Assembly (NCBI GenBank): GCA_964017065.1
Contig: OZ024788.1
Coordinates: forward strand, 5,695,087 to 5,759,086
DNA length: 64,000 nt
Reading direction: 5' to 3'
Source: Haliclona indistincta
Taxonomy: Eukaryota; Porifera; Demospongiae; Haplosclerida; Chalinidae
Shown here: in pieces, positions 607 to 58,228 of the stretch
Numbering within the stretch: the first letter of the stretch is position 1
Layout of the letters: each line of letters starts with the position of its first letter
The notes under the pieces: generated by a model
The model's database searches: none
The model's input: only the letters and a program-made list of their open reading frames with translations
Told to the model about the DNA's origin: nothing
Made by a program: the position numbers and the translations under genes

Positions 607-926
607 CTACTGAAAAGCTAGGTCCGGTCCGTCTAGCATACCATAGTACATTCTTACTTCCCTATGGTAGGGACAGCATTTGTTGAACCAAATTGCATGA
701 TTGTCGCATAGCAGCATAATGTGGTCATAACGTGGGCACCACCATCTCATCACTGTTATATTGTTGCATTCAATACTGTGGTCCACTTCCTTTTCCAAAT
801 CTTGACATATTTTAAGATAGTCACAAACCATTTGCCTGCATGTGATAAAAAATTGCTTTAACATGAACTTCAGTTTTAAATTTCTTACTTCCGTGGGGGT
901 GGTGATACGTGTGGTTTCTCAGCCAT
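607..926 (-). CDS. CH-A gene 1, small Cys/His-rich protein (88 aa)
   Basis: Two exons: 926-889 and 835-607, separated by a 53-nt GTAAGA...CAG intron; the joined frame is 267 nt. Exon 1 encodes a proline-rich leader, MAEKPHVSPPPR, and the intron splits a Lys codon. Exon 2 carries CDYLKICQ, an IEC, TVMRWWC, LCDNHA and CCPYH. The ordered Cys/His pairs suggest a compact zinc-binding fold; this is inferred, as no known family was recognised. The start follows the paralogues, all of which have ATGGCTGAG/ATGGCTTAC in exon 1. No signal peptide or membrane segment. The promoter side (about 1003-1066) has a degenerate TATA (TACAAATA on the minus strand) and the shared CTAAACCTGTTTA block. Confidence 0.75.
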
Positions 927-1654
927 TGTTGGTAGTTGGTTCTTCTCAGAGCTAGTTGGTTCTTCTCAGAGCTGTGCTTCAGTGAGGTTGTGTGAGTGAG
1001 TGGTATTTGTAGTCTGATGCTAAACCTGTTTACCAGACGAATAATTGACTGCTGCCATTGTTATGAATACTACGATCACATTGTCATGTCGGCTCTTGTA
1101 CTACACACTAGCACAATGTGTTGTATGAGTGTTGGTCACTACACTGTTCCTCCTCTAGCTCTTCATCTATCTCCTCCCTTTCCTCCTCTTCCTATCCCTG
1201 GTTATGTAGACCTATTGGTCACTGGTGTGCCGAGTGATTTTGTGCAGTCAATGCATTAACTTTGTCCTGTGATGGTACAGGTGTGGCTTTTAAATTTAAA
1301 ATGCTCTGGGGTTTGTATTCAAAATAATTGGTAACGTATTTTGGCATAGATGTAAACTTTACTTTACTCACTTCACTTACATACTAATTGGTGCTATAAC
1401 TAGAACCTGCAAGATTTATGTAACATGCAAGCATATGACTTGGAGAGATTGTTGACAGAAGCTAAATGCAAATAATTATTGAGAATCAATTCTCTCCGAA
1501 TTTTGTCTGTTCATGTCTGGATTTCTAGCTAAGCAGTGTAAGTTAGTTAAACTCTGTTCCAATAGTTGCCAAAAATATTTTCATAATGGTGGACAAGACA
1601 AAACAAGGGCAAGTGTTTAAAATAGGTGATACAGTGTAAGTCAAATAGCACTAG

Positions 1655-1970
1655 CTACTGAGAGACTGGTCCGTCAAGCATACTGTATAGCATTCTCACG
1701 CCCTCATGGAAGGGACAGCGGTTATGGAACGATATAGTCGCATGATTGTCGCACAGCAGCATATAGTGGTCTTCACGTGGACACCGCCATCTCATCACTG
1801 TCAGTGTGTCGCATTCAATACTGTGGTCCACTTCTATTTCCAAATCTTCACATATTTCAAGATAGTCACAAACCATTTCCCTGCACGAGATAAAATTGCT
1901 TTAACATAGACTTCAGTTTTAAATTTTCTTACTTTTGTGGTGGTGGTGGTACGTGTGGTTTCTCAGCCAT
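1655..1970 (-). CDS. CH-A gene 2, small Cys/His-rich protein (87 aa)
   Basis: Exon 1 is 1970-1933 (leader MAEKPHVPPPPQ) and exon 2 is 1880-1655, with a GTAAGA...CAG intron. The joined frame is open for 88 codons including the stop. The Cys/His pattern is that of gene 1: CDYLEICE, IEC, TVMRWRC, LCDNHA, CPFH, ending in MLDGPVSQ. A TATAAATA box lies on the minus strand at 2204-2197. About ten copies of a 20-bp minisatellite lie directly upstream of the ATG. Function unknown. Confidence 0.78.
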
Positions 1971-1975
1971 GGTTG

Positions 1976-2168
1976 GTAGTCGGTTCTTCTCAGAGCTAGT
2001 CGGTTCTTCTCAAAGCTAGTCGGTTCTTCTCAGAGCTAGTTGGTTCTTCTCAGAGCTAGTCGGTTCTTCTCAGAGCTAGTCGGTTCTTCTCGGAGCTAGT
2101 CGGTTCTTCTCGGAGCTAGTTGGTTCTTCTCAGAGCTTCTCAGAGCTAGTTGGTTCTTCTCAGAGCTG
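1976..2168 (-). repeat. 20-bp minisatellite in the leader of CH-A gene 2
   Basis: About nine to ten tandem units of roughly 20 bp, on the minus strand close to AGCTCTGAGAAGAACCGACT. They lie between the TATA box and the start codon, so they are probably transcribed as 5' UTR. The same unit occurs once or twice at genes 1 and 3 and about four times at gene 4, so copy number varies between paralogues. Confidence 0.8.
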
Positions 2169-2196
2169 TGCTTCAGTGAGGTTGTGTGGTGAGGGG

Positions 2197-2250
2197 TATT
2201 TATAGTCTGTTGTTTACCAGACGAATTGACTGTTACCATTGTTACGATTA
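2197..2250 (-). promoter_or_regulatory. TATA box and conserved block of CH-A gene 2
   Basis: TATAAATA on the minus strand at 2204-2197, with part of the conserved block around GTTTACCAGACGAATTGACTG behind it. CH-A gene 3 has the same arrangement (TATA at 3866-3859). The position fits a core promoter. Confidence 0.6.
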
Positions 2251-2327
2251 CATGGTCTTGTCGGCTCTTGTACTATGCTATTCATACAATAGTTACTGGT
2301 CTGGACTAGCTGGCTCTGTGTAGACCC

Positions 2328-2823
2328 ATTTTAGACCAGTGTGCAGAATGATTTGTGCTTTAGGTCGTCTATGACTTATGTCCGTTGGCTGTGTTTGGTC
2401 ACATGACCACTGCTACAGGTATCATTCAAGGTGTGGCTTTCATGTTGGCTCAGAATGTACATTTTCATAAGCTAAACCTATTATGACATCAAAACTGAGT
2501 TTTTTCAGAATAATTGTCAATGAACTCGTAACGCTACGCTAGTTAGAAATAATTGCTAATAAAAATCAAGCCTTTTTATGCATGCTCAGTACCATCACAG
2601 CAGTTCTTGCAACGGCTCAAATTGTCAAGCTTACCTAAATCCCCAAGCTAGTGTTTCAGGACTAGTCATAAATAGTAGGTGAACTTTCTGTGATTAAAAA
2701 ATTTTACTTAAAAGTGGCAGTTCCCTACCAAGATTTTCTGTAACTGTTAAGTGTACACTTTTTTCCATCTGGCTGGGGGAAGGCTCTAAATTTTATTTGT
2801 GATGTACGCATTGCATAAATTAT
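2328..2823. repeat. segmental duplication, right copy
   Basis: Matches 1-500 colinearly with scattered substitutions and small indels. The match resumes after the inserted MITE at 2824-3277 and runs on into CH-A gene 3, so whole gene units were duplicated in tandem. Confidence 0.7.
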
Positions 2824-3446: not shown

Positions 3447-3755
3447 CTACTGGGAAGGACACTGAACCACAACCTCAGGTCTTCTATGGTAAGGACAGCA
3501 GTTGTCGAAACAAAGTGCGTGACCGTCGCACAGCATCATAATGTGGTGTTTATAAGAGCAAAACCACCTCTTCACTGTATTGGGTTCGCATTCGACGTAC
3601 TGGTCCAATTCGATATTCAATTCTTGGCATATTTGAAAATATTCGCAAACCATTTTCCTGTGTGTGGAAATTGCTGACTTATTAGTAGACTCCATAGTAT
3701 TGTTTGTCTTACCTTGGAGGTGGTGGGGGTATGTTGGGTTTTCTACGTTTTTCAT
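3447..3755 (-). CDS. CH-A gene 3, frame open through the intron (102 aa)
   Basis: Carries the CH-A pattern: CEYFQICQ, VECEPNTVKRWFC, LCDGHA, CCPYH. The usual ATGGCTGAG start is mutated, and an ATG at 3755 is used in this call. Splicing at the ancestral GTAAGA/CAG sites would shift the frame from this ATG. The unspliced reading is open for 102 codons, giving an intron-derived segment in place of the usual leader. Either the intron has become coding, or translation starts at the internal MVCEYF, or the gene is decaying. A TATAAATA box is at 3866-3859 on the minus strand. Confidence 0.55.
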   Translation of the reverse strand: MKNVENPTYPHHLQGKTNNTMESTNKSAISTHRKMVCEYFQICQELNIELDQYVECEPNTVKRWFCSYKHHIMMLCDGHALCFDNCCPYHRRPEVVVQCPSQ

Positions 3756-3990
3756 CTGTTGTTGAAAGTTGGCTCTTCTCAGAACTACGCTTTTCAGCCA
3801 TGGTTGGTAGTTGGTTCTTCTCAGAGCTGTGCTTCAGTGAGGTTGTGTGAGTGAGAAGTATTTATAGTCTGATGCTAAACCTGTTCACCAGACGAATTGA
3901 CTGCTGCCATTGTTAAAATTACAAATTACACTGTCGACTCTTGTCTCTGAACACACACTGTGCAGTGTGTTGTTGAAGTCACTAGTCTAG

Positions 3991-5001: not shown

Positions 5002-5306
5002 CTACTGAGGGACTGGTCCGTCTAGCACACTGTATTGCATTCTTGCGCCCTGATGGTAGGGACAGCAGCCACTGAACTTGACTGCATGAATATCGCACAG
5101 CAGCATGATGTGATCTTCACGTGTACACCTATATCTCATCACTGTTACATTTTCGCATTCAATACTGAGGTCCACTTCCATTTCCAAATCTTTACATATT
5201 TTACGATAGTCGCAAACCATTTCCCTGCATGAGATAAAAATTGCTTTAACAAAAGATTTCAGTTTTTGATTTCTTACTTCGGTGGTGGTGGTGGTACGTA
5301 AGCCAT
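5002..5306 (-). CDS. CH-A gene 4, small Cys/His-rich protein (83 aa)
   Basis: Exon 1 is 5306-5278, a shortened leader MAYVPPPPP. Exon 2 is 5224-5002, with a GTAAGA...CAG intron; the joined frame is 84 codons. Motifs: CDYRKICK, IECENVTVMRYRC, LCDIHA, CCPYH, VLDGPVPQ. Its unit (about 4600-5480) is a duplicate of the gene 2 unit (about 1300-2250). Confidence 0.75.
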
Positions 5307-6740: not shown

Positions 6741-7053
6741 TCAGAATCTAACATCCTGGACGCTTAGGTAAAGTTGCTTGTTGTGGTAGGGACAGAAGAA
6801 GCCAAACTCTCTGACATGTTTGTCGCACAGGTACATCACGTGGTCTTTACATGCCCATCGCAGCACAGTACTGGCTCTCAGCACGGTATTGATATCGCAC
6901 GGAATGAGGTACTCTATCGCAAATCCCAAGTCTCGGTATATGTCGAGATACTGACAGTACATAGAGCTGTGGAATTACAAAGTTAAGTGAATTAGTCTGG
7001 GTTTTTTTCTTGTTTTCTTGCCTTTGCGGCTGTGGGTGAAAGATTCCTGCCAT
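6741..7053 (-). CDS. CH-A gene 5, GC-AG intron (85 aa)
   Basis: Exon 1 is 7053-7022 (MAGIFHPQPQ) and exon 2 is 6966-6741; the joined frame is 86 codons. The donor is AG|GCAAGA, a GC-AG intron, and the acceptor is CCACAG. Motifs: CQYLDIY, IPCD, VLRWAC, YLCDKH, FFCPYHNKQLYL. It lacks the second Cys of the CDYxxIC motif (Tyr instead) and has an ASTVLR insertion after the first TVLR. Genes 5, 6 and 8 share the GC donor. Confidence 0.72.
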
Positions 7054-7497: not shown

Positions 7498-7793
7498 TTA
7501 GAAGCTGACATCCAGGACACTCAGATATAGTTTCTTTTTGTCATAGGGACATATGGAGCGAAATTCCTTAAGATGTTTGTCACACAGGTATATGACGTGG
7601 TCTTCACACGCATATCTTAGCACAGTGTTAGCATCACATGGGATGAGGACCTCTATTCCAAATTGCAACTCCCGAGATATGTCGAGAAATTGACAGTACA
7701 TTGAGCTGTGGAATTGCAAGGATTTGGTAACAAATCAGTTCTAGACTATTACGTTTCTTGCCTTTTGGGTTGTGGTTTAAGCATTCTTGCCAT
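7498..7793 (-). CDS. CH-A gene 6, GC-AG intron (79 aa)
   Basis: Exon 1 is 7793-7762 (MARMLKPQPK) and exon 2 is 7705-7498; 80 codons including the stop. The donor is AG|GCAAGA and the acceptor is TTCCACAG. Motifs: CQFLDIS, IPCDANTVLRYAC, YLCDKH, ICPYDKKKLYL, so the last His of CPYH is Asp here. Truncated copies of this gene lie at 4495-4592 and 5935-6140. Confidence 0.72.
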
Positions 7794-9200: not shown

Positions 9201-9486
9201 CTACACTTTTAGCTGCTTGCCGTGGTAGGGACAGATGAAGCGAAGCTTCCTAACGTGTTCAGTGCACAGGTCCAGAACATGGTCTTCATTGTCATTGTCT
9301 TTACAGCACCATCTCGTCACTGTAGTACACGGCACACTGAGGTCTATTTGATGCTTCAATTCTCGACATATGTCATTGTACTTGCACTGCAATACACTGT
9401 AGAATATAAAGCAGAGTAAATCTGTCTTAGCTGGTCTTGGTAAATTACCATTGGGGGTTTGTTTTAGCTTTGAAATCGTCTGCCAT
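9201..9486 (-). CDS. CH-A gene 7, small Cys/His-rich protein (77 aa)
   Basis: Exon 1 is 9486-9449 (MADDFKAKTNPQ) and exon 2 is 9396-9201. The intron is GTAATT...ACAG and splits a Cys codon; the joined frame is 78 codons. Motifs: CKYNDIC, VPCTTVTRWCC, DLCTEH, ICPYHGKQL. The donor is weaker than in its neighbours. Confidence 0.65.
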
Positions 9487-9903: not shown

Positions 9904-10184
9904 CTAGCTGCATGAGTGGTTGAGGGGTATATAATCGAATGGGCACAGGAACGCGAATGCCTCGACATGGTTGTTACACAGATACAGCTCATGGCTGCTG
10001 GGGCATCTCCAATACAGCACTGTGTACAGCTCACACTCGATGCTGTAATCTATCTCTATGTACAGCAGTTCACATATTTCGTAGTAGTCACAGTCCATGT
10101 CCCTATAAAATAATAAAAATGGTGAAATTGTCAATTTGTGTTGTTTTCTTGCCTTCCCTCATCTTGATCAGAATTATAAGCCAT
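9904..10184 (-). CDS. CH-A gene 8, GC-AG intron (76 aa)
   Basis: Exon 1 is 10184-10153 (MAYNSDQDEG) and exon 2 is 10102-9904, giving 77 codons. The donor is AG|GCAAGA and the acceptor TTTTATAG. Motifs: CDYYEIC, IECELYTVLYWRC, YLCNNH, LCPFD. It is more acidic than the other CH-A proteins. A copy of the conserved upstream element lies at 10321. Confidence 0.7.
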
Positions 10185-36691: not shown

Positions 36692-36699
36692 TGTATATC

Positions 36700-39083: not shown

Positions 39084-39119
39084 CGCACAGCAGTCATTAT
39101 CAGTCATTTCTTGTAAGCA

Positions 39120-39452: not shown

Positions 39453-39459
39453 TGTTTCT

Positions 39460-40521: not shown

Positions 40522-40897
40522 CTATGCACTTGTTAGTGCTGTTCCATGTTGTGGGCATCGGTCTTCATGTGTCTCACACGTCCACAGGTAATGAGAATGC
40601 ACTTGATATTTATCACCACCGTCCTTGTAGCGGCACATTCGTCTTGTAACTTTACACAGGTCACAATTTTCATTGACATCCTTCTCCTTTAACTTCAGTT
40701 GAACTTTTCCTTGCAGTGTCTCAACGTAGTGGTTAGAATTTTCAACCTTGACATGGCTTTCGCACAAGTATCGAATTCTACTGCTGCCGCTATTTTCCTC
40801 GTACTTACTGATTTTGCAGTATTCACACTTGGACCTAAAACGTAACAAGAACATGTACAACTCCAATCCAGCTTGATGAGGCCTTGTCAACTCACAT
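40522..40897 (-). CDS. CH-B1 gene (104 aa)
   Basis: AT at 40897-40896, exon 2 40834-40522; AT|GTGAGT donor. The product starts MSKCEYC. Module 1: CEYCKISKY, YLCESHV; NHYVET; module 2: CDLC, RRMCRYKD, WTCETHEDRCPQHGTAL. The 61-nt intron is typical. TATAAATA at 41002-40995 and the conserved element at 41196 lie upstream. Confidence 0.78.
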
Positions 40898-41341: not shown

Positions 41342-41798
41342 CTATGCATCTGTCAATGATGTTCCGTCTTGAGGGCATATGTCTTTGTAGTGTGTTCTGC
41401 ACATCCACAGTAAGTGCTTATTTCCACACTTGCGCTGTGTAACTGTACACCTTTTACACCTGTTGTTGACATTTTTCTCTAATAAGTTCAGTTGAACTCC
41501 TCTTTCTCTAACTGTCCTATTCCCTCTCCTCACTTCATTTACAACATAATAGTTATACCAGAGGTGGAAAATTCCTTTATCCACTTCAACATGGTTTTTG
41601 CACAAGTACCATATTGTACTGTTATCGTTCGTTTCCTCATATTTGCTGTTGTTACAATCGTCACACTTAGCCCTATTATGAAGAAACAGCTTTAGCAATC
41701 CTATCACTTGTCAAGCTAGCTTTGTCATTTTGGATATGCACTACAATCAAGCCAGTGACAAATCCCATACGCCGTGTGTGTGTGTTGTTCACTTACAT
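41342..41798 (-). CDS. CH-B1 gene (110 aa)
   Basis: AT at 41798-41797, exon 2 41672-41342; AT|GTAAGT donor, 124-nt intron. The product starts MAKCDDC. Module 1: CDDCNNSKY, YLCKNHV; NYYVVN; module 2: CKRC, QRKCGNKH, WMCRTHYKDICPQDGTSL, so the last His is Asp. Confidence 0.78.
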
Positions 41799-41877: not shown

Positions 41878-41997
41878 ATGACAAACATGTTTGCTAAACC
41901 GGTTTATCGGCTAATAGTAACGTATTGTTTCAATAGCCACACCTCTATCTTAGCCATTTACACTGTCGTGTCAGCTCTTGTACGGTTATTATTCTCT

Positions 41998-42050
41998 GAG
42001 CACACACTTGTGCAGTGTGTTGTTATACTGCTATCACAACAGCACTCAAG
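41998..42050 (-). promoter_or_regulatory. conserved upstream element, CH-B1 gene at 41342
   Basis: Has the GAGCACACAC...CAGTGTGTTGTTATACTG part and an ACTCAAG end; the last palindrome is lost. Confidence 0.65.
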
Positions 42051-42369
42051 ACAACATATAAATTATATCAACCATCATAGGTCAAAAAGTTTGCTAAACT
42101 CCATCTACATGTGTGCATTGTGTCGAGATAGTAGCGGTACAGTGTTCCTGGTCAGAGCAGCACTCAGCAGATGATTGTAGATGCTCATAACCTACGTCAG
42201 TGAAGTCTTTATGCTGAGGACGAGGTAGTTAAAGTTTTCATAAACTCCATTATACAAGAACTTCATCAAAATATTTGCTCAAAATTTCTCGCTATACAGT
42301 ATCAGCTAGTGCTACTCAGTTTAACACTCTAATGTTCTAATGCACTATGTGTAGTCTGGACATAGCTTT

Positions 42370-42559
42370 TTATGCTTTAACAAGAGAGTTGCCACATTCA
42401 GGACAAGAATCAAGTAGACAATCTTCAGAGTGATACCAATGGTAGTGGGCAAACCATCTGGTACACCTGTACTGAATGGCTCCATCATCTCCACATGTTT
42501 CACATTCACCCCTGTGTTAGTGTAAAATAGCTATTATGCTTAGTCAAATACACTTACAT
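42370..42559 (-). CDS. CH-C mini-gene (47 aa)
   Basis: AT at 42559-42558, a 46-nt intron, exon 2 42511-42370. The product starts MGECETCGDDG and has YRCTRWFAHYHWYH and SCPECGNSLVKA. Pattern CxxCG-x8-C-x5-HYHWYH-x4-C-x4-CPxC. Function unknown. A second AT|GTAAGT site at about 42685 may serve an alternative 5' exon. Confidence 0.72.
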
Positions 42560-42773: not shown

Positions 42774-42886
42774 GTCACTAAACCAGTTTCTCTAACAGGT
42801 TTATTAGCTGACGGTATGCGTAGCCTCATGTTAACCATCGTTATGACTACATTGTCATGTCGGCTCTTGTGCTGTTACTATTCTCA

Positions 42887-42947
42887 GAGCACACACTAGT
42901 GCAGTGTGTTGTTATACTGCTATCACAACAGCACTCAAAAGCTCTTT
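42887..42947 (-). promoter_or_regulatory. conserved upstream element, CH-C gene at 42370
   Basis: Full 5' core; the end reads CACTCAAAAGCTCTTTT, so the AAGAGCTCTT palindrome is damaged. Confidence 0.65.
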
Positions 42948-43067: not shown

Positions 43068-43424
43068 CTATGTCAGTGGTGTTCCATGTTGAGGGCAGCG
43101 ATATTCATTCTTTTCAAAATGCTCTGCACACATCATCAGGGAATGGCCGCCTCCTGATTGACACCTTCGTTGTTGAACTGTGCATCGTTTGCACTGTACG
43201 TCGACATTACTTTCTGCTTTCTTCAACCATTTTGTTTCTCCTGTTACATTGACGTAGTAGTAATCAAAAAACGATGTTTTGATATGACATCCACACAGAT
43301 AGCCAAATATTTCATTTGAATAATAATCTTTATACTTGGAAACAAGGCAGTATTCACACTTAGGCCTGTACAGAATAAATCACTCTGAAAGTGATTGAAT
43401 TATTGGTCAATTGCTCACTTACAT
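43068..43424 (-). CDS. CH-B1 gene (99 aa)
   Basis: AT at 43424-43423, exon 2 43365-43068; AT|GTAAGT donor, 57-nt intron. The product starts MPKCEYC. Module 1: CEYCLVSKY, YLCGCHI (a Cys replaces the second residue before His); DYYYVN; module 2: CKRC, QRRCQSGGGH, MMCAEHF, YRCPQHGTPL. The frame is intact, though it has no ATG of its own in exon 2. Confidence 0.75.
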
Positions 43425-43797: not shown

Positions 43798-44388
43798 TTA
43801 AGTCAGTGAACTCCCATGCTGTGGGCATCGGTACTCGTAGTTCTTGTAACAGTCGTCACACATCCACATGTAGTGAGAGCTATCTGTATACTGACAAGTT
43901 CGTTGTTTAACTGTGCACTGATCACACTTCACATAGACGTACTTCTCTACTATATCCAACCGAATTTTTTCTTTACTTGTTTCCACATAGTAGTAGTATC
44001 CGTACACATATCCACTCTTAATGGTGACGTGATTTTTGCACAAATCCCATATTTCGTTGGGATTGTCGTATTTTCGATACTTAGTGATCAAACAGTATTC
44101 ACACTTGGGCCTAAATGGAAGAGAAGCAGTTGTGGTACTGTGTAAGTCAATAAAATTCATATTTTTAGAAGCTTGTGAGCACAACAACTAACTGTGGGTA
44201 TCAATTTTTTCTGTAGGTAAAATATTTTCTCATGCAATTGGCTTCAAGAAGAGGAGAAAGCCAAAATATAATGTGAGCTGAAAGATAACTATTAGTTTAC
44301 CAGCCTGTTGCATATCTCATGTAGTCAATGTGACCCATTCTAGGTACTATTGCAAGTTTATTACCAAGCTCTATATACTTACGTACAT
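43798..44388 (-). CDS. CH-B1 gene (104 aa)
   Basis: AT at 44388-44387 with a GTACGT donor, a 276-nt intron (longest of the group), exon 2 44110-43798. The product starts MPKCEYC. Module 1: CEYCLITKY, DLCKNHV; YYYYVET; module 2: CDQC, QRTCQYTD, WMCDDCYKN (Cys where others have His), YRCPQHGSSL. Confidence 0.72.
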
Positions 44389-44563
44389 CGTTTTCTGTCT
44401 GAGAGAGTGGTAGGCACAAATACGTAAATAAGGGCTCCTTGCTTTAGGGCTGTAGTCTCGTGATCGATGCTTACTCGACAAATTCTATCACCTGATATGT
44501 TTCGATAGTCACACCCACCATATCTACAGTTGCCTGTCGGCTCTTGTACTGTTACTATTCCCT

Positions 44564-44642
44564 GAGCACACACTAGTGCAGTGTGTTGTTATACTGTGTT
44601 GATAATAGTGCACTCTCACAAGACCACTCAGAGCTCTTCCTC
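44564..44642 (-). promoter_or_regulatory. conserved upstream element, CH-B1 gene at 43798
   Basis: Complete core with GTTGATAATAGTGCACTCTC; the last palindrome is CAGAGCTCTT, one base different. Confidence 0.78.
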
Positions 44643-44718: not shown

Positions 44719-45206
44719 TTACGTAAGTATAGTACCATGTAGAGGGCATCGATAGGCGTTATCTTCATAATGTCTGTTGCACAGCGGCAGATGGTGAATA
44801 TATCCATCTTTGTTACGACACGTCCATTGCTTGACGTCACACTTCTTGCACTTGTTACTATCATATTCCTCCTTTTCGGTCAGTCTGATTTTTCTGCCGT
44901 TTACTTTTACGTAGTAGTGGTAGCCATAATATCTTCCCGACTCCTTGATGACATGGGTTTCACACAAACACCAGGTAACACTGCTATCGTAGTATTCTAC
45001 ATATCTTTTGCTGATGCAGTACGGACAATTGGACCTATGCAATAGATAGCAAGATATAAGTTTACTCCACAGTATGATAATTAACCAACGGCAAAATAGT
45101 GTTTTATTCACACTTTTGAGTGTTGTATTTACTGGGCAAGCATCATTCTAGTTTCCTTGCTATACCTTACACCGGAAGTCATACCGGTTGACAATAAAAC
45201 TTACAT
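44719..45206 (-). CDS. CH-B1 gene (105 aa)
   Basis: AT at 45206-45205, 170-nt intron, exon 2 45034-44719; AT|GTAAGT donor. The product starts MSNCPYC. Module 1: CPYC, CLCETHV; YHYYVK; module 2: CKKC, WTCRNKD, PLCNRHY, YRCPLHGTIL. The end of the intron is also open and would encode a hydrophobic leader from an intronic ATG. It is a recent duplicate of the next gene. Confidence 0.78.
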
Positions 45207-45414
45207 TCTGGTATAAATGTCTTATGTATGGCTTTGAATTAGCGTTGAACGTATTTGGACAGGACTCGGCTTCTCTGTTTTGAGTTTGAGCTTTTAATTT
45301 GTGAAAGTCTCGTGATTGCTCAGTGCTAGACTGGTTAAAAATGTTTCGATAACCACTCTTCTCGCTATTGTTACGAATACACACTATCTTGTCATGTCAG
45401 CTCCTGTACTTCCT

Positions 45415-45494
45415 GAGCACACACTAGTGCAGTGTGTTGTTATACTGTGTTGATAATAGTGCACTCTCACAAGACCACTCAAGAGCTCTTCCCC
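45415..45494 (-). promoter_or_regulatory. conserved upstream element, CH-B1 gene at 44719
   Basis: Complete: CACACT/AGTGTG hairpin, GATAATAGTGCACTCTC, CAAGACCACTC and AAGAGCTCTT. Confidence 0.82.
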
Positions 45495-45662: not shown

Positions 45663-46149
45663 TTACGTAAGTGCAGAGCCATGTAGAGGGCATCGATGGT
45701 TGTAATATTCATAATGTCTGTCGCACATTTTGAGATTGTGACAATGAATTTTTTCATTGTCATCTTTGTAGCGACACGTCCATTGCTTGACGACACACCT
45801 CTCGCACTTGTTACTAAAATTTTCCTCCTTTTTATCCAGACTGATCTTTTTACGGTTTACTTTTACGTAGTAGTAGTAGCCATAAACAGTTCCCGGCTCC
45901 TTGATGACGTGGGTTTCACACAAATACCAGGTAACACTGCTTTCATATCTAGTGATGGTGCAGTACTGACACTTGGACCTATGCAATAGATAGCAAGATA
46001 TAAGTCTACTACACAGTGTAATAATTAACCAACGGCAAAATACTGTTGTATTCATACTTTTGTGTGTTGTGTTTACTGGGCAAGCATCATTCTAGTTTTC
46101 ATGCTACACTTTACACTGAAAGTCATACTGGTTGACAATATAACTTACA
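45663..46149 (-). CDS. CH-B1 gene (105 aa)
   Basis: AT at 46149-46148, 169-nt intron, exon 2 45978-45663. The product starts MSKCQYC. Module 1: CQYCTITRY, YLCETHV; YYYYVK; module 2: CERC, WTCRYKD, KMCDRHY, HRCPLHGSAL. Closely similar to 44719-45206, including promoter and intron, so a recent tandem duplicate of about 0.95 kb. Confidence 0.8.
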
Positions 46150-46363
46150 TTCTGGTATAAGTGTCTTCTGTATGGCTTTGAATTAGCGTTGAGCGTATTT
46201 GGACAGGACTCCGCTTCTCTGTTTTGAGTTTGAAGTAGCTTTTAATTTGTGAAAGTCTCGTGATTGCTCAGCGCTAGACTGGTTAAAAATGTTTCAATAA
46301 CCACTCCTCTCGCTATTGTTACTAATACACACTATCTTGTCATGTCAGCTCCTTGTACTTCCT

Positions 46364-46443
46364 GAGCACACACTAGTGCAGTGTGTTGTTATACTGTGTT
46401 GATAATAGTGCACTCTCACAAGACCACTCAAGAGCTCTTCCCC
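46364..46443 (-). promoter_or_regulatory. conserved upstream element, CH-B1 gene at 45663
   Basis: Complete and almost identical to the 45415 copy. Confidence 0.82.
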
Positions 46444-46535: not shown

Positions 46536-46966
46536 TTATGTCAGTACTGTGCCGTGTTGAGGGCATCGGTAGTTGCACTCTTCATAATGCCTTTCACACA
46601 ATTTCAGATGGTGGACCTGTTCTCTTCCATAACCATCTCGATATCGACATGTCCGTTGTGTAACTATACACTTGTCACACATATCGTGTACATTTCGTTG
46701 CTCTTTGTTCAGCCGAATTTTTCCATCATCTGTTAGTACATAGTAGTAGTATGTGTCAAAAATTTTCTCCACGATGACATGGTCTTCACACAAGTACCAG
46801 ATTTTACTGCTGTCGTTGTGTTGCTGATATTTGGTGTTGGTACAGCGTTCACACTTGGCTCCCCTGTGTAAAGCAATACAGACCAGCTTTATGAGTATCT
46901 GTTTGAAGAACTAGATTCTGGGGCAGCTATGTGACTGTTATAATGCTCAATTCGACTTACTAACAT
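46536..46966 (-). CDS. CH-B1 gene (109 aa)
   Basis: AT at 46966-46965 with a GTTAGT donor, 101-nt intron, exon 2 46863-46536. The product starts MGAKCERC. Module 1: CERCTNTKY, YLCEDHV; YYYYVLT; module 2: CDKC, QRTCRYRDGYG, KLCERHY, YRCPQHGTVL. Confidence 0.78.
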
Positions 46967-47329: not shown

Positions 47330-47717
47330 TCATGCTCGGCGAAATCTTGTCCCGTCTTCTTGACAGTATGGTTCTGCTTGAAAATGGTACTTGCATAGCC
47401 AAGTTGTATGCTGCCACATCTGCCTCTGGCACCTGTAATGGCTAACTGAGCATTTTTCACACGAGACATCATAGTCGCTATCATCTATCAAGTATACTTG
47501 TACTTGTGTCCAATCTGCTTCTTTGATGTAGTATGTGTTAGATCTCGTGTAGGGATTGGTGACTATTTCAATGTGTCGATCACACAGGTAGCGATATATC
47601 CTTCTTGGATGGTTGTAATCTTGGTACTTTCTGACTACACATTTTTCACACTTTTGAGGACTAGAAATACTTCAAAAAATGATTTCATGGATTTTCTTCT
47701 TACCTGTACATAGCCAT
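47330..47717 (-). CDS. CH-B2 gene, divergent (114 aa)
   Basis: Exon 1 47717-47704 (MAMY, AG|GTAAGA), exon 2 47660-47330; 115 codons. Here the start codon is in exon 1, unlike CH-B1. Module 1: CEKCVVRKY, YLCDRHI; TYYIKE; module 2: CEKCSVSHYRC, WLCKYHF, YCQEDGTRF, so the CPxH motif is changed to CQED. Ends in RRA, as CH-B2 proteins do (xxA). Confidence 0.68.
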
Positions 47718-47886
47718 AATATTGGTTATGAAGAAGCGTCGTAGCTGCAACCTAGCGTATCAACAATATGTTTGTTGTGATTTTAGTTACCGATTATAAG
47801 TATCTTTCTTAATTTAGCTTTATTGTGACCACTCCTCTGAATCACTCAATCTGGTCATGTCGGCTTTTGTACTGTTACTATTCTCA

Positions 47887-47956
47887 GAGCACACACTAGT
47901 GCAGTGTGTTGTTATACTGTGCTGACTCTCACAAGACCACTCAAGAGCTCTTCCCC
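47887..47956 (-). promoter_or_regulatory. conserved upstream element, gene at 47330
   Basis: Complete hairpin and final palindrome; the GATAATAGTG segment is deleted. Confidence 0.78.
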
Positions 47957-48055: not shown

Positions 48056-48456
48056 CTACGTCAATGAGTAGCTTGTATGTATTGGGCAACTGTATTTATA
48101 CTCTTCAAAATGCTTTTCGCACATCGTCACATTATGATCACGTGGGCATCTTCGTCGCTGAACCGTGCACCGCATGCACCGTTTGTTGACATATTCCTTC
48201 GCTTTTGTTAGCCATTTCTTCTCTCCACGTATATCTATATATTTGTTGCCAAACAATGATGACTGGATATGATCTCGGCACAGTGCTCCATACGGATAAC
48301 CGGTGTCATAGTCATTGTACATGTCGACATCCTTGCAGTATTCACAATGTTCCCTGTGAAGACAAACCAAGTCTAACATAATAGTTTATGTCTGAAACGT
48401 TCTCATGTTTTGCAGTACACTCAATATCATTTAGCAAAGCTTGTGTATACTTACAT
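48056..48456 (-). CDS. CH-B1 gene (99 aa)
   Basis: AT at 48456-48455, 101-nt intron, exon 2 48353-48056; AT|GTAAGT donor. The product starts MEHCEYC. Module 1: CEYCKDVDM, ALCRDHI; KYIDI; module 2: CMRC, RRRCPRDH, TMCEKHF, YSCPIHTSYSL. Confidence 0.76.
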
Positions 48457-48662
48457 TTTTGGATGGTTTGAGTGTCTCCTTTATGGCTTTGATAAAGGAC
48501 GAGCTTGCCTTGGAAATAGTCAGTACCACTTGATGACGAAGCACGGAAGGATCTGTTTTGAGTCTCGTGATTGTCTAAACCTGTTTACTGGACTAGTTAT
48601 CGACTATTGTAACCACTCCCCTGTCTTACCACTTTATGATTACCGTGCTGTTGCTATTCTCA

Positions 48663-48730
48663 GAGCACACACTAGTGCAGTGTGTTGTTATAATAGTGCA
48701 CTCTCACAAGACCACTCAAGAGCTCTTCCT
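48663..48730 (-). promoter_or_regulatory. conserved upstream element, gene at 48056
   Basis: Complete, with a short deletion of CTGTGTTGA in the middle. Confidence 0.78.
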
Positions 48731-48856
48731 CTTAAAATATTCATGTATCATACAAGTCACATTGGCTTGATATACCCTATTTTACATGTACAGTGTATAT
48801 ACAATTATATGAGTGTGTTAAGTCAAACTGCGTCTCTGGAATAGTCTTTCCACTTC

Positions 48857-49225
48857 CTAGTTCAGTGATGACGTGGTGTGGGTCGGGCAACTGTAGTTGT
48901 ATTCTTCAAAATGCCTTCCACACAATATCAGGTAATGTGATCGTTGCTGTCCATAGATATCTCTATACTTACACGTTCGTTGTTGAACCATGCATCGTCT
49001 GCACTGCGAGAGGACATTAGTTGCTGCTCTAGTTAGCGTTTTGAATTCACCAAGTTCAAGGATAAAGTAGGTATCGCCCATTTTGGTGACATGGTGGTCA
49101 CACAAGTCCCCAAATATTTCATATGAATCACTGTATCTGTATTGGTTGACTGTGCAATATTCACACTTTTGCCTGTAAAAAAAACAAAGCAGCTGAGAGG
49201 CAGTTTGGTAGCATTTGCTGCTCAT
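48857..49225 (-). CDS. CH-B1 gene, intron probably turned into coding sequence (122 aa)
   Basis: The homologous exon 2 starts at 49172 (QKCEYC). The splice donor AT|GTAAGT is replaced by ATGAGC, so no GT remains. The old intron is 3n long here and has no stop, so an ATG at 49225 reads through it, adding MSSKCYQTASQLLCFFYR. Module 1: CEYCTVNQY, DLCDHHV; module 2: CRRC, QRTCKYRD, ILCGRHF, YSCPTHTTSSL. Either a novel N-terminus or a gene that lost its proper start. Confidence 0.6.
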   Translation of the reverse strand: MSSKCYQTASQLLCFFYRQKCEYCTVNQYRYSDSYEIFGDLCDHHVTKMGDTYFILELGEFKTLTRAATNVLSQCRRCMVQQRTCKYRDIYGQQRSHYLILCGRHFEEYNYSCPTHTTSSLN

Positions 49226-49561
49226 TGTCTGTCAACCAAGCTAGTTCAACTATATGCTATAGTAAAGACATTTTTACACTAAATACTTGGTACAATGGTG
49301 TGTGCAGTCTAGTTATATGGTTTCTCACTGACCCATATGAACAAGCCATCTCTCCTGCAATGAATGATTCTGTTGAAGGACCTCTGAGGCAATTAGTGCT
49401 GACTGGTATAGCCTGTTACGCAATAGTGTTAGCAACCGGATTACCGGCTATCTGGTTATAATAATTTTCGTTCTCATAATTGGGTGCATCAGTAGCCACT
49501 CCTCTGTGTCACGATTGTACACAATCTTGTCATGTCGGCTCTTGTACTGTTACTATTCTCA

Positions 49562-49640
49562 GAGCACACACTAGTGCAGTGTGTTGTTATACTGTGTTGA
49601 TAATAGTGCACTCTCACAAGACCACTCAAGAGCTCTTCCC
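49562..49640 (-). promoter_or_regulatory. conserved upstream element, gene at 48857
   Basis: Complete; full-length consensus copy. Confidence 0.82.
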
Positions 49641-50719: not shown

Positions 50720-51083
50720 TCATGCTTTTTTTATTAGTGTATTACAATTTGGACAGAGGTATTTAGTCTTTCCTACATGGTTCAAGCACAGCTGTATTTG
50801 ATGATTGTGCTGGCATTGGTAATGACCAACTGAACACTCATCACATTTTGCATCAACATTGCGTTGTGCGACCTTGACTTCATAGCGTTCTTTAGTAGTA
50901 TGGTAGATGTGCTGACCATCTTCTGTCACAGTTGTAAGCACATGATTTTCACACAGATTATAGTGGCGTATTGAATCTGTATATCTTGTGACTCTGCAGT
51001 TATCACACTTGTCAACACTGTAATAGAAGAATGGTTTCATGGATAGCATTCTGGGTTCTAACTAACCTGGGTGAATAAGCCAT
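50720..51083 (-). CDS. CH-B2 gene (104 aa)
   Basis: Exon 1 51083-51067 (MAYSP, AG|GTTAGT), exon 2 51017-50720; 105 codons. Module 1: CDNCRVTRY, NLCENHV; module 2: CDECSVGHYQC, QLCLNHV, YLCPNCNTLIKKA. The final motif is CPNC instead of CPxH, as in CH-C proteins. Confidence 0.76.
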
Positions 51084-51293
51084 TTCTGCTAGGATGGAGT
51101 TCGTACGAAGGAGCTTTTAGGCGATTTGTGCTGACTGTGGTTTTGTGTAATTCTCTAAACTGTTTACTAGGCAGATTTCCGGCTACCCAATTACAATATT
51201 TTTCTCATAATTGGGTACATTTAGTGACCACTCCTCTGTGTTATGAATGTACTCAATCTTGTCATGTCGGCTCTTGTACTGTTACTATTCCCT

Positions 51294-51373
51294 GAGCACA
51301 CACTAGTGCAGTGTGTTGTTATACTGTGTTGATAATAGTGCACTCTCACAAGACCACTCAAGAGCTCTTCCCC
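51294..51373 (-). promoter_or_regulatory. conserved upstream element, gene at 50720
   Basis: Complete consensus copy. Confidence 0.82.
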
Positions 51374-51544: not shown

Positions 51545-51758
51545 TTAAGCTCTGACCAGCGGACGCCAGCACTCAGGGCAGGTCACTGGACAACACCACC
51601 AGTAATGATACCAATGATAGTGACGTGCACAGCACTTGAACTGACGAGCTCCACTTCCTCCACATTTCTCACAATTAGTCCTGTGTGATTATGCAAGATA
51701 AAATGCCCTTAGATACCGGTACTTTTTACCAGTAAGCTTTGCAGACTAGTACTTACAT
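51545..51758 (-). CDS. CH-C mini-gene (45 aa)
   Basis: AT at 51758-51757, 76-nt intron, exon 2 51680-51545; AT|GTAAGT donor. The product starts MTNCEKCGGSG and has KCCARHYHWYHYWWCC and CPECWRPLVRA. Very rich in aromatic residues and His. Confidence 0.72.
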
Positions 51759-52059: not shown

Positions 52060-52180
52060 CTTACTTAGCCTATGTGTTGTCTGAATTATCAGCAGCATTC
52101 AAAAGTGAAATGCTCAGTTACTTGCATTATTTAGTTTAGTATAGTTATTTATAGTTTATTATAGTTTTACTCTTAAAAAG

Positions 52181-52424
52181 TTAGTTCACTGAATGTGTCA
52201 CTGTGTTGTTACAGGTTGAAGTGAGGGGTAAGCTGTCGCTATCAAACTTTATGGAGAGAGCTGGGCAGTTCCATGGACAGCACCACGGCCACCAATGGTA
52301 ATAGTAAGTGTGACCATTTCTACACCTGTAGTGTGCTGCTCTTCCTAGCCCACAATTTTCACAATCATGACCCCTGTGCTCATGTTGGATAGCATGTACG
52401 ATTAGTTCAGTCAAGCACTTACAT
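52181..52424 (-). CDS. CH-C mini-gene, altered C-terminus (64 aa)
   Basis: AT at 52424-52423, 49-nt intron, exon 2 52373-52181. The product starts MGHDCENCGLG and has YYYHWWPWCCPWNCPAL. Compared with the gene at 54074 a 4-nt deletion shifts the frame after CPA, removes the last CxxC Cys and gives a longer unrelated tail. It may be non-functional. Confidence 0.55.
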
Positions 52425-52701: not shown

Positions 52702-53096
52702 TTATGCTAAATTAAGTGATGTATTATCTTGTGGGCAGCGATGTCGAAATTGCGCATAATGTTCATTACAGAGCCACATCGTGTGTTGAAAGGAATAGAA
52801 GGCCTGGCACCTGTACTGTTTGACAGAGCAATTGCTACACGGCATGTCGACATTGCTTTGCACTGGCCACACTTGTGTTCCTTTAGTGTAGTAGTTTGTT
52901 TGTCTGTTGTAGCGATCATAGCTTTTTTCAATATGGTGTTCACATAAAATGTAGTAAAATGATCCGGTTGAGTCTTGGTATTTTGTAACGTTGCAATATT
53001 CACACTTGAAAATAAATTGTGTTGAAAACCATAGAAATTAGATTACACCTGCCAACTAACCTTAGGGAAGAAAAAACGATTATTTAAAGCAGCCAT
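52702..53096 (-). CDS. CH-B2 gene with a phase-0 intron (112 aa)
   Basis: Exon 1 53096-53061 encodes MAALNNRFFFPK and ends at a codon boundary (AAG|GTTAGT). Exon 2 53004-52702 starts with TGT, so K|C sits at the junction. Module 1: CEYCNVTKY, ILCEHHI; YNRQTNYYT; module 2: CSNCSVKQYRC, WLCNEHY, HRCPQDNTSLNLA. The acceptor moved from the usual position to TTTTCAAG within the ancestral KC codons. Confidence 0.72.
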
Positions 53097-53289
53097 CTCT
53101 GATATAAATAAGTTTGTATGAAGGACACTTGAGACGATTAGTGCTATAGACTGACACGATTGGTATATACTGTTGCGTAATAGTGTACCAGACTAGCCGA
53201 TAATAAATATTTCTTTCTTTTAATCGGTAGCCACTCCTCTGTGTTACGTCAATCTTGTCATGTTGGCTCTTGTACTGTTACTATTCTCA

Positions 53290-53368
53290 GAGCACACACT
53301 AGTGCAGTGTGTTGTTATACTGTGTTGATAATAGTGCACTCTCACAAGACCACTCAAGAGCTCTTCCC
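53290..53368 (-). promoter_or_regulatory. conserved upstream element, gene at 52702
   Basis: Complete consensus copy. Confidence 0.82.
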
Positions 53369-54073: not shown

Positions 54074-54282
54074 TCAAGCTTTATAAAGAGAATAGCCGCA
54101 AGCTGGGCAGTTCCATGGGCAGCACCACGGCCACCAATGGTAGTAGTAGCTGTGCCTCTTACTGGGAACGTTTGTGCACCTGTAGTGTGCTGCGTTTCCT
54201 TTACCGCAATGTTCACAGTCATGACCCCTGCACTCATGTTAGATAGCATGTACGACATTAGTTCAGTGTCTAGTACTTACAT
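54074..54282 (-). CDS. CH-C mini-gene (51 aa)
   Basis: AT at 54282-54281, 53-nt intron, exon 2 54227-54074; AT|GTAAGT donor. The product starts MGHDCEHCGKG and has HSYYYHWWPWCCPWNCPACGYSLYKA. Cys/His pattern complete. Sister of the gene at 52181. Confidence 0.72.
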
Positions 54283-54664: not shown

Positions 54665-55031
54665 TCATGCCCGATAAAGTGATGTATTATCCTGTGGGCA
54701 TCGATACTGAAATTGCGTATAATGCTCATTGCATAGCCACACTGTGTGTCGAGCCCAGGACTGACACCTGTAGTGGCAGACGGTGCACTTTCTACACTTC
54801 ACATCAACATTGCCTTGGACAAGTCGCACTTGTGTTCCATCAGTGTAGTAGTTATTTTGTCTGTAGTAGAAATCGTAATAGGTGTCTATATGATTTTTGC
54901 ACAAATAACGGTCATATCCTTCTGAGTCCACATATTTTGAAACGTAACAATATTCACACTTGTGGCTGTGTTAGAAAAATCAGATATTGGAGTGTTTTCA
55001 ACTTACTAACTAACCTGAATGAATGAGCCAT
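54665..55031 (-). CDS. CH-B2 gene (105 aa)
   Basis: Exon 1 55031-55015 (MAHSF, AG|GTTAGT), exon 2 54965-54665; 106 codons. Module 1: CEYCYVSKY, YLCKNHI; module 2: CRKCTVCHYRC, WLCNEHY, YRCPQDNTSLYRA. The last His of CPxH is Asp, as in 52702. Confidence 0.78.
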
Positions 55032-55251
55032 CTCTGCTGTGAAATGAGTTCGTAGAAAGATCTTTGAGGCATTCAGTGCTGACTGTGGTATAGTCTGTTG
55101 CGCAATAGTTTAAACCTGTTTACTAGTCGGTGTACCACTAACTGATTATAATAATTTTTGTTCTCGTAATTAGGTGCTTCAGTGACCACTCCTCTGTGTT
55201 ACGATTGTCAACAATCTTGTCATGTCGGCTCTTGTACTGTTACTATTCTCT

Positions 55252-55330
55252 GAGCACACCTAGTGCAGTGTGTTGTTATACTGTGTTGATAATAGTGCAC
55301 TCTCACAAGACCACTCAAGAGCTCTTCCCC
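55252..55330 (-). promoter_or_regulatory. conserved upstream element, gene at 54665
   Basis: Complete, with one base missing in the first arm. Confidence 0.8.
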
Positions 55331-55863: not shown

Positions 55864-56244
55864 TTATGCTTTTTGAAGTGTTGCTTGATCGTGTGGACAG
55901 CGATAATTAAATTGTGCTAAATGGTTCAAGCACAGCCACATCGAATGGCTCCTCCGGCACATGTAGTGACTTACAGAGCACCTTTCACACTTTATAGCAA
56001 CATTGGGCTGTACGACCCAGATAGCATTTCCTTGTTTAGTGTAGTACAAAGTTTGTCTTCCATTGAGATAGTCACTTGTAACCATTGAGTCCACATGATT
56101 ATTACACAAATAGTGATAGTGCCGCGAATCCTGATACTGTGCGACTCTACAGTAGTCACACTTGTGTTGGCTGTGATACAAAGTTGTAAATTTGGTAGCT
56201 TTTAGTTAGAATAAGATTCAGACTTACCTGTATGAATACGCCAT
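55864..56244 (-). CDS. CH-B2 gene (107 aa)
   Basis: Exon 1 56244-56228 (MAYSY, AG|GTAAGT), exon 2 56170-55864; 108 codons. Module 1: CDYCRVAQY, YLCNNHV; module 2: CERCSVSHYMC, WLCLNHL, YRCPHDQATLQKA. Near-identical twin at 57131. Confidence 0.8.
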
Positions 56245-56455
56245 CTCTACTAGGAAAGGATCGTAGCAGGTTCTTTGAGGCGATTTAGTACTGACTTTGG
56301 TGTTGCGCAATTCTCTAAACTGTTTACCAGGCAAATTTGCCGGCTACCCGATTGTGATATTTCTTTCTCATAATTGGGTGCTTTAGTGACCACTCCTCCT
56401 TGTTACGATTGTCAACAATCTTGTCATGTCGGCTCTTGTACTGTTACTATTCTCT

Positions 56456-56525
56456 GAGCACACACTAGTGCAGTGTGTTGTTATACTGTGTTGGCTCTCA
56501 CAAGACCACTCAAGAGCTCTTCCCC
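56456..56525 (-). promoter_or_regulatory. conserved upstream element, gene at 55864
   Basis: Complete, with the GATAATAGTGC segment deleted. Confidence 0.78.
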
Positions 56526-56703
56526 TCTCAACAAATGCACTGAGCGTGCCTATACTATCTGTGTTATCTTGATGGTTAAAGATGTAAATACCAAATGTAA
56601 AATAAATGCACAAACTGTTTGTTGCTTTGTTCGATTACTTTAGTATGTCATAAATGTCATAAAATTAATGTGTAGTATCAGCATTTTTGTGTGTGAACGT
56701 CAA

Positions 56704-56970
56704 AGTTTTGTTTCATCAAAATGGACAGCGATATCGGAATTGCTCACAATGGTTGTAGAACGTCCACATTGCATGTCCCTCCTGTCGGTGCTGGTATTGG
56801 GCAAATATCTTTAATAAATTCTTTACACTCTTCACATTCAGCATTAGTGTTGGTTAGCTTGATCAGAACATAAGATACATCACCCCATTCACTATGCATG
56901 TATATAGTGCACTCTCCACAAGACCACTTCTCCTCTAGACTAAATGCACGAAGCTTCACTGTCTTACTCT
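56704..56970 (-). pseudogene. CH-B2 pseudogene, copy 2
   Basis: One frame gives CEECKEFIKDICP and another gives HAMWTFYNHCEQFRYRCPF, the C-terminal module with LCxxH degraded to FYNHC. Frameshifted. Confidence 0.62.
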
Positions 56971-57130
56971 ACTTTTGTCTGAAGTGTGTACATGTACATC
57001 TATTGCTGTTAAAAAACAATAATAAAAACCACACAACGTAGAGATTAATAATTATTTTATACTTAGATGTAAATGTGTCTGTTTGAGCATGTGTTACAGT
57101 ATAGCGGATGATTTAATAAAAGTAGTGATC

Positions 57131-57515
57131 TTATGCTTTTTGAAGTGTTGCTTGATCGTGTGGACAGCGATAATTAAATTGTGCTAAATGGTTCAAGCAC
57201 AGCCACATCGAATGGCTCCTCCGGCACATGTAGTGACCAACAGAGCACCTTTCACACTTTATAGCAACGTTTGCTTGTACGACCCAGATAGCATTTCCTT
57301 GTTTAGTATAGTACGAAGTTTGTCTTCTATTGAGATAATCTCTTGTAACAACTGAGTCCACATGATTTTTGCACAAATAGTGATAGTGCCGTGAATCCTG
57401 ATACTGTGTGACTCTACAGTAGTCACACTTGTGTTGTTGGCTGTGATAGAAAAGTTGTAAATTTGGTAGCTTTTAGTTAGAATAAGATTCAGACTTGCCT
57501 GTATGAATACGCCAT
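57131..57515 (-). CDS. CH-B2 gene, GC-AG intron (108 aa)
   Basis: Exon 1 57515-57499 (MAYSY, AG|GCAAGT), exon 2 57440-57131; 109 codons. Same protein as 55864 with few changes (CDYCRVTQY, YLCKNHV, CERCSVGHYMC, CPHDQATLQKA). The twin has a GT donor, so this GC donor is a single recent T-to-C change. Confidence 0.8.
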
Positions 57516-57725
57516 CTCTACTTGGAAAGGATCGTAGCAGGTTCTTTGAGCCGATTTAGTGCTGACTATGGTGTTGCGTAATTCTCTAAACTGTTTACCA
57601 GGCAAATTTGCCGGCTACCGATTGTAATATTTCTTTCTCATAATTGGGTGCTTTAGTGACCACTCCTCCTTGTTACGATTGTCAACAATCTTGTCATGTC
57701 GGCTCTTGTACTGTTACTATTCCCT

Positions 57726-57805
57726 GAGCACACACTAGTGCAGTGTGTTGTTATACTGTGTTGATAATAGTGCACTCTCACAAGACCACTCAAGAGCTCT
57801 TCCCT
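57726..57805 (-). promoter_or_regulatory. conserved upstream element, gene at 57131
   Basis: Complete consensus copy, including GATAATAGTGCACTCTC. Confidence 0.82.
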
Positions 57806-58043
57806 CGACTGTGTAATCAATGTCTGGTGTGTAAAGCGCTAGGTTAGAATCGGCAACTGGCTTAGTGTATTTAGGCACTTTGTATTTCAGACGCCAGCGC
57901 ATTGTATAGTACCTTAGTGTGAGATCATTCTTGTGTCAGCTTGATGGTTGTGGTCGAAAAATTAGTTTTACAGAGCATGCATGTGTCATAACACTCTTTT
58001 ACTGTCAAGCATACAGCAGGTCCAATATCTAGACTGCTCTGTT

Positions 58044-58228
58044 TTAAGCTCTATAGAGAGGGCGCCAACATTGTGGGCAGAACACAGGGCAGCACCAAAT
58101 CATATGATAGGAGTATGTGTGACCATTCCAGCACTTGTAGTGCGTGGCTCCTGATCTTCCACAATTCTCACATGTACCCCTGTGGTAATGCACATGTATG
58201 ATACTCTTAATCAAGATAGCACTTACAT
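58044..58228 (-). CDS. CH-C mini-gene (45 aa)
   Basis: AT at 58228-58227, 47-nt intron, exon 2 58179-58044; AT|GTAAGT donor. The product starts MGTCENCGRSG and has YKCWNGHTYSYHMIWCCPVFCPQCWRPLYRA. Last member of the array in this window. Confidence 0.72.

Follow-up and report, generated by a model that had tools for sequence, protein, structure and literature searches.

The array is confined to a single locus

A 64,000-nucleotide stretch of the genome of the sponge Haliclona indistincta (C6:5695087-5759086 in a genome of 144 Mb; hereafter the window) holds part of a tandem array of short genes for Cys/His-rich proteins, which is confined to one locus of that genome. Most of the loci carry a promoter cassette of about 140 bp that hardly occurs outside the array and has been conserved much more strongly than the proteins, two findings that go beyond a preliminary description of this stretch. 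These features can be read directly from the sequence, as can the ligand pattern of the proteins and their lack of N-terminal hydrophobicity. We propose, giving this explanation not quite an even chance, that the genes form a co-regulated, cell-internal repertoire of the arms-race type, in which a zinc scaffold is fixed and the protein surface varies.

The window was scanned in six frames with regular expressions for Cys/His exons. The exons of the array all lay on the minus strand; the scan also returned two plus-strand and about five minus-strand chance matches, and reversed-sequence controls gave 0 and 1 matches to the full motif and 1 and 1 to a loose motif. Within the window the minus strand bears 30 loci, of which 8 are type A, 17 type B and 5 type C; about nine array fragments accompany them, and two of these are weak. 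When a profile scan was extended by 40 kb on the left and by 10 kb on the right, where part of the sequence reads N, a further 18 loci appeared on the left. This brings the total to 48 loci, some of them broken, between C6 5,677,852 and 5,753,330, all clear matches being on the minus strand. The tandem, minus-strand arrangement first described is thus confirmed and is larger than stated (48 loci, 30 of them in the window). Its extent was partly correct: the array is real, and it continues leftward for at least 17 kb beyond the window edge and is broken at about 12-32 kb of the window by a VWA-domain gene and two retroelements, which we take to be DIRS-like.

Genome-wide protein searches with two type B queries, one type A and one type C query returned 18, 21, 19 and 6 matches (E up to 0.01 for the first three, up to 1 for type C), counts that are lower bounds, and every match fell inside the array (C6 5.678-5.753 Mb, minus strand). 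Damaged copies are also present. One left-flank copy has an in-frame TGA, the left-flank loci are in part without a convincing gene model, the splice-site script described below gave no model for loci D1 and D6, and locus C2 has lost its last Cys pair. The birth-and-death evolution that had been suggested for the family is supported.

A promoter cassette almost private to the array

The promoter module was defined by an iterated profile started from one upstream region. It was found in 23 of 27 upstream regions (A4, A5, B1 and B2 gave no match) and, over the extended region, was assigned to 34 of the 48 loci, with three further modules lying apart from any locus; the shared promoter modules reported earlier are thus borne out. 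Genome-wide, all 20 matches of a 176-bp promoter query were in the array, as were all 12 of a 30-bp block and all 17 of a 37-bp core taken from type A promoters. With up to three mismatches allowed, 21 of the 23 matches of a 21-bp block lay in the array, the reversed control giving 2; a 22-bp core had 13 exact copies, all in the array, and 20 of 25 copies there at up to three mismatches (reversed control, 0).

Conservation was compared among 13 type B genes, those remaining once B1, B2, B3 and B9, in which the module is missing or short, had been dropped. The module had a median pairwise identity of 0.879, against 0.513 in coding DNA and 0.415 at third codon positions, and it was more alike than the coding DNA in each of the 78 pairs. 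Adjacent upstream sequence, leader, intron and downstream sequence showed identities of 0.48-0.53, which is probably near the level of unrelated sequence in such alignments. Within the module, identity per 10-bp block is 94-100% over the first 80 bp and 62-93% over the remainder.

Two other identities of the module were considered and rejected. Fold z-scores of +1.15, +0.74, +1.31 and -0.65 (three modules and one opposite strand) do not fit a structured RNA, and few or no copies outside the array do not fit a dispersed transposable element. Rfam matches in the window were limited to two tRNAs. Of 27 upstream stretches of 320 bases, 12 contain sites of the form AACNNGTT, where regional density would predict about 4; these may be Grainyhead-like sites. 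The 37-bp type A core (for example at window 7163-7199) begins with GTCTG, contains CAGAC as part of an inverted repeat around GTAAACAGGTTTAG, and is followed by a TATA-like box. The modules located in the window by the iterated profile are as follows.

41933..42051 (minus), promoter module of B4
42837..42946 (minus), promoter module of C0
43552..43692 (minus), promoter module of B5
44506..44642 (minus), promoter module of B6
45349..45494 (minus), promoter module of B7
46297..46443 (minus), promoter module of B8
47825..47956 (minus), promoter module of B10
48609..48731 (minus), promoter module of B11
49492..49640 (minus), promoter module of B12
51224..51373 (minus), promoter module of B13
53227..53368 (minus), promoter module of B14, within the 176-bp genome-wide query
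55182..55330 (minus), promoter module of B15
56386..56525 (minus), promoter module of B16
57656..57804 (minus), promoter module of B17
58390..58514 (minus), promoter module of C3

The proteins have probable zinc ligands and look cell-internal

The proteins, about 45-123 aa long, had been described as one family in three types, and profile alignments uphold this, more weakly for type C. A C-terminal module is common to types A and B (hhalign 97.5%, E 5.9e-12), type B module 1 is related to module 2 (85.8%, E 5.4e-6), and type C shows a weaker relation to the others (76%, E 2.2e-5). Type B has 12 Cys/His columns, of which 10 are invariant and the other two hold H/C or H/D/C in all 17 proteins. 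In the alignment of close type A genes, differences affect 9 of 360 ligand cells, compared with 1158 of 2745 other cells. Ligand columns that vary only among Cys, His and Asp fit three zinc sites in type B, and the presence of His and Asp argues for a metal rather than disulfides. The earlier suggestion of zinc binding thus gains support from the exchange pattern, and we regard the proteins as putative zinc binders.

AlphaFold models were confident (predicted local distance difference test, pLDDT, 95.6 and 88.6). Read together with the alignment, they suggest a CxxC knuckle, a beta-hairpin, a helix starting from CxxH and an interleaved second ligand set. In these modeled elements the proteins would resemble RING, FYVE and treble-clef fingers. 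Structure alignments of the models gave no clear known fold, which does not imply that the fold is novel. When characteristic ligand spacing patterns were applied, none of 25 exon-2 proteins fit the RING pattern (C-x2-C-x(9-39)-C-x(1-3)-H-x(2-3)-C-x2-C-x(4-48)-C-x2-C, also with relaxed ligands), and none fit those of PHD, MYND, B-box, C2H2 or CCHC.

No N-terminal hydrophobic stretch was found in 24 spliced proteins (A3 and type C left out): the maximum 15-residue mean hydropathy within the first 40 residues is at most 1.26 in 24 of 24, by a test of hydropathy alone that used no signal-peptide predictor. The proteins thus look cell-internal, probably without a recognisable secretion signal, and this does not support the label 'toxin-like' that had been attached to them. 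Net charge runs from -13 to +1 in type A (n=7) and from +1 to +8 in type B (n=17).

An orphan family in the libraries searched

The family had been called unrecognised, and profile searches indeed gave no clear match to a known family. In Pfam, nothing exceeded the curated cut-off for 10 proteins; the best E among the 17 type B members was 0.0036 (DUF7226, 2 members, in a listing that does not carry the cut-offs), and 8 type A members were without any match up to E 1. The PRDM4-type zinc knuckle PF18445 matched a single protein over a 14-residue segment with CPxHG at its end (E 0.028) and was rejected, its 14.6 bits standing against a cut-off of 25.8 and only 1 of 17 type B members matching with E of 1 or less. 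A search of PDB sequences had no match with E below 0.049, and PHROGs gave four weak matches, one member each. A viral or bacterial origin was likewise rejected, as one type B query each against viral contigs and prokaryote genomes, in searches that reach close relatives only, returned no match.

Against 5.8 billion proteins, the type B alignment had 0 matches at E up to 0.001, and an alignment of type A with the type B module had two at E up to 1, P0121 and P0122. P0121 matches A2 at 74/80 residues over the whole length of P0121, and P0122 and the array copy at C6 5,689,414 are identical at 73/73 residues; this near-identity to array members indicates that both come from the same or a very near species. 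Apart from these two, and as far as sequence comparison goes, the family is an orphan in the libraries searched. The same database returned 255 relatives of the neighbouring VWA protein, the 120 matches listed including one named as from the sponge Corticium candelabrum at 49%, and so it does cover relatives of this animal's genes. Titles and abstract openings in the openly licensed literature yielded no match for sponge zinc-gene arrays.

Gene conversion and signs of selection

For the closest pairs listed, ratios of nonsynonymous to synonymous rates (dN/dS, omega) lay between 0.17 and 1.35. In ten close type A genes, model M2a was preferred over M1a (likelihood-ratio test, LRT, 9.54, p 0.0085), with a class of omega 3.2 comprising 14% of sites; 14 type B genes gave an LRT of 7.33 and 1.2% of sites, without simulation. 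The pair B7/B8 has a dN of 0.209 and a dS of 0.162, with divergences of 0.107 in the intron, 0.043 in the 5' leader and 0.354 in the 3' flank, and its nonsynonymous excess over synonymous plus intron sites has a p of 0.024. These comparisons are suggestive of positive selection in the array genes. Protein distance tracks position in the array (rho 0.28, p 0.017).

In 4 of 13 pairs (B7/B8, U91/U92, U94/U90 and A4/U94) an island of near-identity runs from core promoter to intron; the island differs by 0.04-0.12, exon 2 by 0.18-0.26 and the outer flanks mostly by far more, and the other nine pairs have no such island. The islands suggest that gene conversion has been centred on the promoter; such conversion would explain some of the promoter identity and weakens the selection tests.

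Gene models and split start codons

A splice-site script was run on the upstream sequences to predict gene models, the only criteria being splice-like sites and conservation of position. For 25 of 27 loci it gave one or more models whose sites resemble donors and acceptors, and in 24 the model used is the one with the top score; B14 was modelled in a separate run, and exon 1 of A3, which exceeded the script's length limit, was identified by eye. Predicted exon 1 is short in type A (e.g., MAEKPHVPPPPQK) and, in types B and C, tiny or nothing beyond the AT of the start codon. The two-exon structure put forward earlier needs amending in many B and C genes, where the predicted 'exon 1' is only AT.

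An intron between AT and G is the top-scoring model in B1-B8, B11 and C0-C3 and ranks fourth in B9, so that up to 14 genes would have a start codon split by a predicted intron. In the unspliced RNA of 12 of these 14, AUG is followed by UAA or UGA, in part because of the donor sequence GTRAGT, and the pattern may be a side effect of that donor. No match for intron-split start codons was found among titles and abstract openings of the openly licensed literature. The genes and relics are listed below, AT/G marking a predicted split start codon.

607..926 (minus), type A gene A1; exon 2 607-834, exon 1 to ATG at 926; regular-expression scan and splice model
1655..1970 (minus), type A gene A2; 20-bp minisatellite in predicted 5' leader
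3447..3801 (minus), type A gene A3; exon 1 by eye
5002..5306 (minus), type A gene A4
6741..7053 (minus), type A gene A5
7498..7793 (minus), type A gene A6
9201..9486 (minus), type A gene A7
9904..10184 (minus), type A gene A8
33691..34066 (minus), type B gene B1, AT/G
35139..35562 (minus), type B gene B2, AT/G
36377..36734 (minus), type B relic; profile scan
39102..39512 (minus), type B relic, two frames; regular-expression and profile scans
40522..40897 (minus), type B gene B3, AT/G
41342..41798 (minus), type B gene B4, AT/G
42370..42516 (minus), type C gene C0, exon 2; AT/G exon 1 upstream, two candidate donors
43068..43424 (minus), type B gene B5, AT/G
43798..44388 (minus), type B gene B6, AT/G
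44719..45206 (minus), type B gene B7, AT/G
45663..46150 (minus), type B gene B8, AT/G; close duplicate of B7
46536..46966 (minus), type B gene B9, AT/G one of several models; first sequence of the structure model
47330..47717 (minus), type B gene B10
48056..48456 (minus), type B gene B11, AT/G
48857..49349 (minus), type B gene B12
50720..51083 (minus), type B gene B13
51545..51758 (minus), type C gene C1, AT/G
52178..52424 (minus), type C locus C2, AT/G; last Cys pair lost
52702..53096 (minus), type B gene B14
54074..54220 (minus), type C gene C4, exon 2
54665..55031 (minus), type B gene B15
55864..56244 (minus), type B gene B16
57131..57515 (minus), type B gene B17
58044..58244 (minus), type C gene C3, frame with exon 2; AT/G exon 1 upstream of acceptor

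A proposed intracellular repertoire and its alternatives

In the repertoire that we propose, the shared, near-private cassette would let a single stimulus or cell type activate the genes jointly. Cys/His ligands would fix the fold, with two zinc sites in type A and three in type B, the loops between them would be free to vary, and tandem duplication, loss and promoter-centred gene conversion would renew the gene set. The proteins would act by binding varied partners rather than as enzymes, and their most likely role would be in an intracellular arms race, for example in defence against parasites or viruses or in the control of symbionts.

Several observations weigh against this proposal. Nothing directly ties the array genes to immunity, and the immune or recognition role suggested in the preliminary description remains a conjecture. 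At the threshold used, 14 of the 48 loci have no assigned module; six of these (D2, D4, U83, U86, A4 and A5) carry the 37-bp type A core instead, and eight have neither. Module distance and protein distance are uncorrelated (rho 0.19, p 0.11), so that homogenisation, and not function, could keep the modules alike. For ten close type A genes the overall omega is 0.71, for 14 type B genes it is 0.37, and close pairs such as B16/B17 have a dN/dS of 0.26. A second optimisation gave an LRT of 8.28, which was reached by 1 of 40 null simulations that were optimised less hard. The p value of the B7/B8 excess rises to 0.055 once leader and 3' flank are added, and the type A pairs with a nonsynonymous excess (5 of 28, p < 0.05, uncorrected) share genes and are not independent. 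Gene conversion is evident and can mimic selection. Consequently, the rapid evolution claimed at the outset is retained only to the extent that a positively selected class is suggested, and is tempered by the overall omega and by this confounding.

Many of the same data can be read as mostly neutral turnover of a redundant array under weak constraint, in which conversion started at the promoter would homogenise promoter to intron while exon 2 drifts and the fold is kept. The many close type A pairs whose omega lies near 1, the four of 13 island pairs with differing exon 2 and flanks, the uncorrelated module and protein distances, and the pseudogenes and fragments are all consistent with it. 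This reading sits badly with a module whose first 80 bp are 94-100% identical in 13 genes with a median of 41% at third codon positions, with the M2a signal, and with ligands almost wholly conserved in 17 type B genes, and we hold it to be unlikely. Gene sets engaged in gamete conflict are known to be arranged in tandem, to diverge around a scaffold that stays fixed and to share promoters specific to a tissue, and the array shares its tandem layout, fixed scaffold and common promoter with them. Germ-line or gamete genes in sexual or selfish conflict, expressed in sperm, egg or embryo under a cassette that restricts cell type, would account for this; nothing in the neighbourhood suggests gametes, however, and we consider this explanation rather unlikely. 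The net charges argue against protamine-like DNA packing and do not speak against other roles. Ligands ordered as C,C,C,H,C,H,C,H/D, together with a beta-hairpin and helix, could instead form a cross-brace that recruits partners to the ubiquitin machinery; that the proteins are such mini-RING-like ligases or adaptors seems highly improbable to us, and a lineage-specific expansion of nuclear regulators that read chromatin or nucleic acid is the least probable of the explanations weighed here.

Lineage-specific, fast-changing arrays of short Cys-rich genes are a kind of system already known. The legume nodule-specific cysteine-rich (NCR) genes are described as a large family of short genes, mostly with two exons, whose peptides have fixed Cys, variable residues between them and near-neutral dN/dS in the mature part, and many of whose members have conserved promoter motifs of 41-50 bp in common (PMC9515463). 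They are the closest working analogue of the array, in their short two-exon genes, fixed Cys and conserved promoter motifs. However, NCR peptides have a signal peptide and disulfide bridges, whereas the array proteins show no N-terminal hydrophobic stretch and have Cys/His/Asp as putative ligands, as in zinc sites; membership in the NCR family is ruled out by the different ligand set and by the lack of a signal peptide, as judged by hydropathy. Moreover, every array match falls at a single locus, and the array's cassette, at about 140 bp, exceeds the NCR motifs in length and is nearly confined to that locus. What distinguishes the array is thus its single locus, probable zinc in place of disulfides, no sign of secretion, and a near-private cassette that is conserved beyond the proteins.

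Clustered protocadherins form a same-strand tandem array with a conserved promoter element for each variable exon. The sponge array resembles them in its same-strand tandem units, each with its own promoter bearing a shared element, and differs in that no common downstream exons are recognised, the proteins are unrelated and promoter choice is only hypothetical. In a further reading, the private cassette would be an addressing element through which a locus-specific factor picks one or a few of the approximately 48 promoters per cell or individual, making the array a combinatorial intracellular identity or recognition system of an early-branching animal, a reading that we regard as quite improbable. 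Promoter-centred gene conversion would then hold the address constant while exon 2 diversifies, and the intron-split start codon, with its unspliced AUG-stop in 12 of 14 genes, would add a gate; the splicing gate is only an idea.

The array offers a natural test case of one regulatory address being kept while its products diversify, and the 140-bp cassette sequence is a direct handle on the factor that binds it. Should the genes respond jointly to microbes or viruses, they would constitute an orphan intracellular defence repertoire in a sponge, an animal counterpart of the legume NCR pattern.

Neighbouring elements in the window

The insertion that divides the type A from the type B part of the array contains the two elements labelled DIRS-like, at window 15605-19726 (plus) and 20762-24927 (minus). 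Both have reverse transcriptase and RNase H-like matches; a tyrosine recombinase match is strong in the former and below the Pfam cut-off in the latter. The VWA-domain gene lies at 13016-14620 (minus), inside the array region, and a separate open frame at 12559-12993 appears by eye to encode a papain-type end with a zinc ribbon (Pfam, weak DUF7560 match). The two tRNA genes, at 11644-11718 and 34554-34625, are each near a type B relic or gene, and their surroundings, alike by eye, look like parts of one duplicated segment.

Tandem repeats of several kinds are also present. A 20-bp minisatellite of about 2 to 8 copies is found upstream of type A start codons (1977-2137, near 930-970, and 5330-5390). 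Two matching 50-bp tandem arrays, at 25040-25320 and 26067-26347, lie about 1 kb apart and are flanked by the same frames, indicating a local duplication. Finally, a 36-bp minisatellite with 22.8 copies occupies window 60756-61575, and shorter arrays of a similar unit are located at 58867 and 59553.

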